Assembly: GCF_014201145.1 (NCBI RefSeq)
Contig: NZ_JACHDP010000001.1
Coordinates: forward strand, 6,324,001 to 6,388,000
DNA length: 64,000 nucleotides
Source of the DNA: Micromonospora parathelypteridis
Lineage (GTDB): Bacteria; Actinomycetota; Actinomycetes; Mycobacteriales; Micromonosporaceae
Direction: 5' to 3'
Positions 33,586-35,314 of the stretch are shown piece after piece; within the stretch, counting starts at the first letter, position 1, and each line of letters opens with the position of its first letter. The position numbers were made by a program, and so were the translations under genes. The notes under the pieces are model-generated. The model did not search any database, was not told the DNA's origin, and saw only the letters and a program-made list of their open reading frames with translations.

Positions 33586-33944
33586 GGAATCATGGCCGGG
33601 CCGGGGTCGTTACATACACTGACGATCGCAGCACCGCCAGCCAGTCCCTCGGGTTGGAGTGCCTAGCCCAGGGTTGGAATGCAGGCCCCGGCCCGGTCGT
33701 TGCGATCCCCACGAACGACCGCCCGGCCGCCGCCTCCACGAGGTGCCGATGGACGGGCCACCCCCGGAATGACCCCGGCCCCCGGGTCGTTACACCTGGA
33801 CCCGACGCCATGAGCTCTCCGCTCGTGAGCCGCCCCCGGGAATGGCCCCGGACCTCGGGTCGTTACACATGGACCCGGCGCCACGAGCCCCCCGCGTTTG
33901 TAGGCCGCCGACCCGGCGCCACCAGCCCCCCGCTTGTGGGCGCC
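33586..33944 (+). repeat. array of four 29-bp motifs with hairpin-forming cores
   Basis: The pattern GGAAT-N13-GGGTCGTTACA occurs at 33586, 33676 (CGGTCGTTGCG variant), 33766 and 33839, always with the same 18-bp offset; spacing is 90, 90 and 73 bp. In copies 3 and 4 the core forms a 6-bp stem CGGGTC/GACCCG (33783-33804 and 33856-33877) around near-identical 10-nt loops GTTACACCTG and GTTACACATG. Copy 2 forms an 8-bp stem CGGTCGTT/AACGACCG (33694-33721). A second repeat starting GACCCG(G/A)CGCCA occurs at 33799, 33872 and 33910. The array ends ~100 bp before the secreted-protein gene. Confidence 0.75.
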
Positions 33945-33998
33945 GACCCCTCTTAAGACTTTCCCCTGTTTGTTTGTGCAGCGCCGGACGAGGTGCTC

Positions 33999-34034
33999 AC
34001 ACCCGCTTGCCACCCCCTGTTGGTGTGCGGGTGT
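33999..34034 (+). promoter_or_regulatory. leader hairpin before the secreted-protein gene
   Basis: ACACCCGC (33999-34006) pairs perfectly with GCGGGTGT (34027-34034) across a 20-nt loop. It ends 11 nt before the GAAGGAG ribosome binding site (34045-34051), so it could affect mRNA stability or translation. Confidence 0.5.
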
Positions 34035-34059
34035 TCCTACCCCCGAAGGAGCTACCCCC

Positions 34060-34644
34060 ATGAACACGATCATGCGTAAGAGTGTGCTGTCCGTTGCTGG
34101 TCTCGCGTTCGCCGGTGGTGTGTTCGCCGGTCCGATCGCCGCCCACGCCAACCCGGTCGACGCCAAGCCCGTCGCCGTGGCGGTGCAGGCCGACAAGCCC
34201 GACACGAGCAAGCTGATCCCGCACGGCACCCAGGGCGACCAGTCCCGCATCACCCTCAACGACGAGCAGACCGGCAACGCCAAGGCGATCATCGCCGCCA
34301 CGAAGAAGGCCGGCCTCCCGGAGCGGGCCGCGGTCATCTCGATCGCGACGAGCCTGCAGGAGTCGAAGCTGGAGAACCTCGGTCACCTCGGTGACATGAA
34401 CGACCACGACTCGCTGGGCCTGTTCCAGCAGCGGCCGAGTTCGGGTTGGGGTACCCCGGAGCAGATCACCGACCCGGCCTACTCGACCACCGCGTTCCTC
34501 AAGGGCCTGCGACAGGTTGACGGGTGGCAGGACATGCCCCTGACCCAGGCCGCGCAGACCGTCCAGGTCTCCGCCTACCCGGACGCCTACGCGCAGTGGG
34601 AGCAGCAGGCCGCCGACCTGGTTGGCCAGTACTGGAACAGCTGA
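34060..34644 (+). CDS. secreted lysozyme-fold protein (transglycosylase-like)
   Basis: 194 residues. Signal peptide 1-30 (MRKSVLSVAGLAFAGGVFAG, cleavage after AHA). The mature part has a disordered ~35-residue start, then a lysozyme-like domain from residue ~72: AKAIIAATKKAGLPERAAVI, IATSLQESKLENL with the probable catalytic Glu101, DHDSLGLFQQRPSSGWGTPEQ, and AAFLKGLRQVDGW-like helices. Similar domains occur in actinobacterial cell-wall hydrolases. ATG 34060 has GAAGGAG 8 nt upstream. Its promoter must lie in or just after the repeat array; the AT-rich TCTTAAGACT at 33951-33960 is a candidate -10 region. Cell-wall remodelling is the likely role. Confidence 0.85.
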   Translation: MNTIMRKSVLSVAGLAFAGGVFAGPIAAHANPVDAKPVAVAVQADKPDTSKLIPHGTQGDQSRITLNDEQTGNAKAIIAATKKAGLPERAAVISIATSLQESKLENLGHLGDMNDHDSLGLFQQRPSSGWGTPEQITDPAYSTTAFLKGLRQVDGWQDMPLTQAAQTVQVSAYPDAYAQWEQQAADLVGQYWNS

Positions 34645-34664: not shown

Positions 34665-34704
34665 CCGTTGGCCGGCACCCCGCACCCGGGGTGCCGGCCA
34701 ACGG
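34665..34704 (+). terminator. strong terminator hairpin
   Basis: A 17-bp perfect stem (34665-34681 with 34688-34704; starts CCGTTGGCCGGC) around a 6-nt loop, 20 bp after the stop of the secreted-protein gene. No T-run follows, as is common for actinobacterial terminators. Confidence 0.85.
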
Positions 34705-34869
34705 CATATCCACACCCCACCCCGCACCGGCACCGCTACCCCCCAACGGCACTGCCACCCGCGCCCCCTGGACCCGCACCCGCGCTGCCCCGCCTCGCCC
34801 CGCGTCTCCCGCCCCGCGCCCGCCTGCCCGCCTCGTCCCGCGCCGCCCCGCCCTCCGCCTGCTCCTGCG
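34705..34869. other. C-rich, strand-asymmetric tract
   Basis: About 165 bp almost without G on the plus strand over long stretches (runs such as CACCCCACCCCGCACCGGCA). The minus strand has many G-tracts and could form G-quadruplexes. No coding frame with protein-like composition. Confidence 0.5.
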
Positions 34870-34943
34870 TCGATCATGGACTTGTGGTGCCCGGTCGGGG
34901 ATGCTTCAGGTGGCTTTGTTCCCCACCACAACTCCTTGATCGA
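34870..34943. repeat. 74-bp palindromic intergenic element
   Basis: 20-bp arms (34870-34889 and 34924-34943, two mismatches) beginning TCGATCATGGACTTG and ending CTCCTTGATCGA, with a 34-nt loop. Arms closing on TCGATC resemble repeats I associate with Micromonospora intergenic regions. Confidence 0.7.
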
Positions 34944-34991
34944 CGCGGGCTGGCGTGTCGCGTGCGCCATCGGCCGCTACACGGCTTGGCA

Positions 34992-35036
34992 ATCTTGGAC
35001 AGTTTCCGTCAGCGGCGGACGGAAACTGCCCAAGAT
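34992..35036. repeat. 45-bp palindromic intergenic element
   Basis: 19-bp arms (34992-35010 and 35018-35036, one mismatch; ATCTTGG...GTTTCCGTC) around a 7-nt loop. Distinct in sequence from the element 50 bp upstream. Confidence 0.7.
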
Positions 35037-35133
35037 CTCGGCGACTGAGCGGGTCGGGCGGGTTGAGCCGTCGGGCGATCGGCCGGGCGGTGGGAACATC
35101 GTGGGGGTCCGGCTGGTTGTGGAGAGTGTCGGT

Positions 35134-35274
35134 GTGACTCAGTGTCCCCGGGCCTCACCTAATAAAGCCTTCGCGGAATACCGTTCGGCTGGAGCCGCGT
35201 CGCGCCACTCGCCGAGAGGCGACCTGCACACCGACACCAGCGCCGCCCCCGCCAAACGGCCGGGGGCGGCGCTG
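35134..35274 (+). other. possible short transcript ending in a strong hairpin
   Basis: TAATAA (35160-35165) is the only AT-rich -10-like site here. Downstream is a CGCC-GAGA-GGCG hairpin with a GNRA loop (~35211-35222), and the segment ends in a 14-bp perfect stem (CAGCGCCGCCCCCG 35238-35251 with 35261-35274) that looks like a terminator. No ORF lies between. It could be a small RNA or only a terminator reading towards the phosphatase gene. Confidence 0.3.
35238..35274. terminator. terminator-like hairpin
   Basis: Perfect 14-bp GC stem with a 9-nt loop, 40 bp upstream of the phosphatase start; it would insulate that gene from upstream transcription. Confidence 0.7.
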
Positions 35275-35314
35275 TCTGTGCCCACCGTCAGGCCAGCGGC
35301 GGCACAATGCTCGG

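Follow-up and report, generated by a model that had tools for sequence, protein, structure and literature searches.

In Streptomyces coelicolor, SigR is freed when its anti-sigma factor RsrA is inactivated by thiol oxidation, and antibiotics that inhibit translation raise SigR synthesis. The gene rpmE and thioredoxin genes are among the targets of SigR. The available part of PMC9205884 gives GGAAT-N18-19-GTT as the consensus of SigR promoters and rbpA as a direct target, and the available part of PMC4921905 describes a SigR regulon of more than 100 genes, PrfA included. We analyzed a stretch of 64,000 nt of the genome of Micromonospora parathelypteridis (hereafter, the window), in which a four-copy array precedes a gene encoding a predicted secreted muramidase-like protein. 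This array very likely represents four tandem SigR-type promoters (SigR/SigH_actino class of ECF sigma factors) that would drive the gene starting at position 34060 in a SigR-dependent manner, because GGAAT-N18-GTT fits the consensus found in the available part of PMC9205884. This reading is based on the promoter anatomy of the copies, their strict spacing, the occurrence of this motif also ahead of sigR and rbpA, and the conservation of multiplicity.

The four copies start at positions 33586, 33676, 33766 and 33839 of the forward strand (periods of 90, 90 and 73 bp). The first-pass annotation had described them as GGAAT-N13-GGGTCGTTACA recurring with invariant internal spacing; the positions and periods were recovered and the motif is exact in three of the four copies, but copy 2 (CGGTCGTTGCG) deviates at three positions. 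All four copies present the -35 element GGAAT and a -10 element starting with GTT, separated by 18 bases where the consensus has 18-19: copy 1 (33586..33614; GGAAT at 33586-33590 and GTTACA at 33609-33614), copy 2 (33676..33704; GTTGCG), copy 3 (33766..33794; GTTACA) and the proximal copy 4 (33839..33867; GTTACA), with the start codon 221 nt further on. The array lies far beyond chance expectation. With up to three mismatches, the motif was found five times in the window relative to 0.18 expected, and none of 100 shuffles reached five. The pattern GGAAT-N18-GTT yielded on average 0.2 matches per shuffled window, and three matches within 300 bp were observed in none of 200 shuffles. Searching both strands of the window for the core GGAAY-N18/19-GTT returned six matches, four of which constitute the array. 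Copies are separated by 72-111 bp in this genome and mostly by 74-99 bp in relatives (up to 289 bp, with some copies possibly missed), and fixed helical phasing was rejected on these distances only.

The gene downstream of the array (34060..34644, forward strand) encodes a 194-residue protein whose N-terminus resembles a signal peptide, which upholds the wall-enzyme context proposed in the first-pass annotation. It is preceded on the same strand by a probable ribosome-binding site (GAAGGAG; 34045..34051), read from the sequence and conserved in relatives, and a 17-base inverted repeat just 3' of the gene (34665..34704, forward strand) possibly represents the transcription end. The protein is similar to the solved muramidases 8b2h (E = 3.5e-14; residues 56-185) and 8b2e (E = 3.4e-13; residues 68-182), and it also matches profiles of phage endolysins and tape-measure proteins. 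At 0.001, the 194-residue protein had no match to a Pfam or NCBIfam family, and the best 120 of 4698 relatives are mostly named hypothetical or secreted protein. The product is muramidase-like and, judging from these similarities, probably enzymatically active. Further downstream, stretches of positions 34848-35278 are found again, at 80-92% identity, behind several of the other gene copies and apparently constitute a separate intergenic repeat.

We searched for the motif across the genome, a single contig of 7.01 Mb. The strict motif GGAAY-N18-GTTACA was found 30 times, relative to zero for the reversed pattern. All 30 sites belong to arrays upstream of 11 genes, which encode either six near-identical muramidase-like proteins (the window and loci L020-L024; 97-100% identity) or five C39-like peptidases (L016-L019 and L025; Pfam PF13529, E = 1.2e-23, for the one tested). 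The random positions that the first-pass annotation had associated with a mobile repeat were therefore not seen. The core GGAAY-N18/19-GTT was found 4, 4, 5, 5, 5 and 4 times before the muramidase genes (27 sites, every one GGAAT-N18) and 5, 2, 4, 2 and 2 times before the C39 genes (15 sites, seven with GGAAC and one with N19). Across the ten loci outside the window (8.0-10.5 kb), the core is present 42 times in 187,018 strand-bases, and 38 of these matches are array sites of the enzyme genes. Of the 31 matches to the looser motif GGAAT-N18/19-GTTAC in the genome, 26 are array sites and two belong to sigR and rbpA; the remaining three are located before a luciferase-like monooxygenase gene, before an open frame and without evident target. 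Both families of secreted proteins share N-terminal regions of about 45-48 residues that are 44-53% identical, and their catalytic domains belong to different families; promoter and signal peptide look as if they formed a shared cassette.

The multiplicity of these sites is conserved in relatives. The closest loci with a species name, those of Micromonospora alfalfae, trifolii, arida and noduli, encode the muramidase-like protein of the window at 93-96% identity. Relatives were taken as the best 80 of 431 related loci from named genomes, all Micromonospora except one "Micromonosporaceae bacterium", and sites were counted in the 73 loci with at least 450 nt upstream (seven shorter muramidase loci were left out); these loci are related and the counts are not independent. 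The core was present in 73/73 loci, with one site in 2 loci, two in 29, three in 26, four in 15 and five in 1, so that 71 of the 73 contain at least two. All 203 sites present GGAAT, with a spacer of 18 bases in 200 and 19 bases in three, and every other spacer length between 10 and 26 yielded at most six matches (highest for N17). As a control, no core site was found in the first 582 nt of coding sequence of the 73 loci. Homologues without the motif, a possibility raised in the first-pass annotation, were found only as distant paralogues in the same genome (49-51% identity; no such site in front) and never among the 73 close relatives. Some 300 nt upstream of a seventh muramidase paralogue (L312; G000:C1:6449063-6449614; 62% identical), which contains one in-frame TGA, lies one SigR-type site.

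The base following GTT is A in 126 of the 203 sites, G in 76 and T in 1. When the initial motif (GGAAY-N18-GTTACA, up to one mismatch) was used, nine of the 73 loci presented no site; with the published core these nine loci contain two to three sites each, with GTTG at -10, which indicates that ACA after GTT is not essential. Beyond the published SigR consensus, each base of a GGTC ahead of GTT is kept in 189-198 of the 203 sites, which could be explained by common ancestry or by a second protein. Strict sites were detected in all 61 genomes of the genus that were searched (2-30 sites; 0-2 for the reversed pattern). Among 30 listed loci of the genus, a muramidase or C39 gene is present in 18 and absent from 12, of which at least one is truncated by the end of its contig. 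In five of these 12 (L028, L029, L033, L034 and L036), a conserved single GGAAT-N18-GTTACA is flanked by genes for a GntR/FCD regulator and a transporter-like protein. Twenty further loci of the genus comprise 15 with muramidase or C39 genes, two with thioredoxin genes, two with the regulator/transporter site (one assigned by site likeness alone) and one with none of them. At the scale of the family, own genus included, 85 of 121 genomes contain at least one strict site, many of them only one or two, which is near the control level.

The same motif precedes sigR and known SigR targets. The SigH_actino model matched 31 stretches of the genome, one over the cut-off (352 bits) and 30 below. The match over the cut-off, the sigR gene of this genome, presents GGAAT-N19-GTTACA 65 nt ahead of its open frame and adjoins an rsrA-like zf-HC2 gene. 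The genome contains two RbpA-family genes (L222 and L223), and the promoter was read for L222, which was found by family and is also preceded by GGAAT-N19-GTTACA. A SigR orthologue was detected in 31/31 genomes of the family. Starting from the gene (30 loci fetched, two without landmark left out), GGAAY-N18/19-GTT was found within 450 nt of the landmark upstream of 27 of 28 sigR orthologues, the sole miss having just 373 nt of upstream sequence. These 27 sites consist of 14 N18 and 13 N19, one of them with GGAAC; spacers of 14-17 and 20-23 bases together yielded two matches, and the -10 element reads GTTACA in 7 of the 27. Starting from the pattern, we read 15 of 30 loci of the family search, picked for site recurrence between genomes, and 14 of these precede rbpA (7), rpmE (5) or thioredoxin genes (2) in other genera, the exception being L185. 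Within the genus, thioredoxin genes at L145 and L149 carry the site, and at L153 it lies within coding sequence; L153, L185 and L254 represent pattern-first sites without evident target. Target identities have Pfam support for one RbpA, one L31, two thioredoxins and one release-factor domain, and the rest were assigned by eye. In one other genus (g32), the motif was found at sigR (there identified by likeness), muramidase and C39 genes. The proximal array site lies about 220 nt from the start codon, relative to 64-76 nt at rbpA or thioredoxin genes. In another genus of the family, a 16.5 kb region (L263; G079:C1:3725000-3741500) contains at least five muramidase-like stretches with four SigR-type sites among them.

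Three other explanations of the array were weighed. The first-pass annotation had proposed either a functional RNA or a multi-site protein-binding array, and only the latter half stands for the repeats, with SigR-containing RNA polymerase as the most likely protein. Complementary arms do exist in copies 2-4, as had been noted, and a stem of at least six pairs at the -10 element was found in 42 of 150 distinct copies relative to 11% when the 3' part was shuffled, mainly in second-position copies with AACGACC. Yet these hairpins are mostly not beyond chance when folded: 47-nt pieces of copies 1 to 4 folded alone yielded z-scores of -0.10, -1.51, -2.68 and 0.09, respectively, so that copies 1 and 4 have no advantage over shuffled sequence, and the score of copy 3 takes in a second hairpin further downstream. 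The supposed conservation of structure and loop fails in relatives, where GGAAT, the 18-base spacer and GTT are conserved instead. Indeed, the CGGGTC/GACCCG stem of copies 3 and 4 is complete in just 1 of 46 distinct proximal copies; when all positions are counted, 3 of 150 distinct copies have it in full, and 69% of its cells pair relative to 54-63% when slid by one. In four second-type copies with an altered -10 flank the other arm presents no matching change, and no stem kept by compensatory change was found among the copies of relatives. Rfam returned no match for the repeats at the gathering threshold, and one chance-level match on the opposite strand (E = 0.42). A riboswitch or other known RNA was rejected on the Rfam result, and conserved hairpins in the repeats were rejected because the stems are not kept in relatives. 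It is most improbable that the repeats constitute an RNA element of tandem hairpins acting in the transcript.

The array could also represent a passive by-product of duplication, with a dispersed cassette containing internal tandem repeats whose number has no regulatory meaning. Indeed, array and gene are duplicated together at six places: pairwise alignments of the cassettes cover 1,092-1,755 bp, in most cases beginning some 500-700 nt ahead of the gene and ending some 70-100 nt beyond the stop codon, and the neighbouring open frames differ between cassettes. In L023, moreover, a copy-3 type unit is found in tandem duplicate with identical cores. However, GGAAT, N18 and GTT are invariant across diverged species while the spacer varies, at least two sites are kept in nearly all related loci as reported above, and no similar DNA was found on the 72,556 plasmid records searched, on which result a plasmid-borne repeat was rejected; we consider this explanation quite improbable. 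Finally, the sites might be ECF promoters read mainly by another ECF sigma factor whose specificity overlaps that of SigR, for instance a SigE-like sigma factor of the envelope stress response. SigH and SigE of Corynebacterium have many promoters in common according to the available part of PMC10012870, the target is an envelope enzyme, all but one of the SigH_actino matches fall below the cut-off and GGAAC is found in 7 of the 15 sites of the C39 genes. Against this, sigR itself bears the same motif. The same part of PMC10012870 states that GGAAC is needed by SigE of Corynebacterium and M. tuberculosis, and GGAAC is found in none of the muramidase sites (GGAAT in 27/27 in this genome and 203/203 in relatives). 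Every muramidase site thus has T where, on that account, Corynebacterium SigE needs C, which makes a SigE-like reader less likely; at the mixed C39 arrays, such a reader may be at work. Overall, we regard reading by another sigma factor as unlikely, and SigR-type promoters as the preferred explanation.

A structured mRNA leader lies between the array and the ribosome-binding site, just ahead of the latter and some 110 bases after copy 4. On the forward strand, it consists of hairpin P1 (33980..33997; AGCGCC/GGTGCT) and hairpin P2 (33999..34034; ACACCCGC/GCGGGTGT with an inner CCAC/GGTG stem), and the fold of the window leader yielded a z-score of -2.91. The alignment comprised 58 rows, one for the window and the others for 57 of the 80 loci; loci with shifted starts and 11 more were excluded. 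In these rows, 94.6% of cells pair relative to 25-65% when slid by one to three columns. Changes on both sides were observed in 43 cells relative to 16.2 in shuffles, and none of 500 shuffles reached 43. The numbers of pairs with double changes (6 relative to 4.0 in shuffles; 30/500) and of pair types (19 relative to 16.7; 39/500) are less striking. The covariation support comes from P2, in which four of the five main-stem pairs changed on both sides and 92.8% of cells are paired; in P1, 99.6% of cells are paired over the 58 rows, and changes are one-sided only, with no double change. A model of the leader detected the six muramidase leaders at E = 0.001 and nothing else among 150 candidates scored; at the C39 loci it matched L025 weakly (E = 0.0075), and the other loci gave chance-level matches or nothing. 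No Rfam family matched the leader (33980-34034), and its hairpins possibly represent an undescribed cis-regulatory RNA. Between the array and these hairpins, a T-rich GACTTTCCCC-like stretch (33950-33979) is conserved in the window and relatives.

The presence of sigR next to an rsrA-like gene suggests that, as in Streptomyces, thiol oxidation would inactivate RsrA and free SigR, and that translation-inhibiting antibiotics would raise SigR synthesis. RNA polymerase carrying SigR would then start a few bases past each GTTACA and produce nested transcripts with leaders of about 190-440 nt. All transcripts would contain the two leader hairpins, a structure supported by covariation that probably tunes stability or translation. 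Several promoters per gene and six dispersed gene copies may together provide more secreted wall-cleaving enzyme under stress. Four points are inferred here: the sites are read by SigR, none of the copies is silent, more copies give more output, and this output matters under thiol stress. Because the five secreted C39-like genes carry the same kind of sites, both families probably form one co-regulated set. More tentatively, it is conceivable that the SigR response has been rewired in Micromonospora and some related genera, with 42 core sites before 11 genes driving a redundant secreted wall-cleaving set; promoter number may have evolved by tandem duplication as a dosage dial, perhaps soaking up free SigR, and the conserved hairpin leader may add a second control layer. 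If true, a cytoplasmic redox alarm would directly control the secretion of wall-cleaving enzymes throughout a genus of antibiotic producers; no such link was met in the available parts of the literature searched. The natural series of one to five near-identical promoters per gene also offers a way to measure promoter number against ECF sigma output.

The promoter type itself is already known. Its serial use ahead of dispersed, related genes for secreted wall enzymes was not met in the available parts of the literature searched, the main SigR regulon papers (2001-2012) lying outside it. Relative to the solved muramidases 8b2h and 8b2e, the window protein is similar in sequence, but it is shorter and no SH3b domain was seen. 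Corynebacterium SigH/SigE promoters, given as GGAAC-N17-18-cGTT in the available part of PMC10012870, present the same architecture; the C39 arrays described here mix GGAAT and GGAAC, whereas the muramidase arrays contain GGAAT only. The closest likeness is with the SigR promoters of actinomycetes (SigH in mycobacteria and corynebacteria), which share the -35 element, spacer length and -10 element of the array, and the same motif precedes sigR, rbpA, rpmE and thioredoxin genes in this family. In contrast to these known promoters, the GGTC before GTT and, in some species, the ACA after GTT are also conserved here, and up to five promoters are found in series before one gene. Finally, the genes preceded by these arrays encode predicted secreted wall enzymes rather than cytoplasmic redox or ribosome-linked functions.
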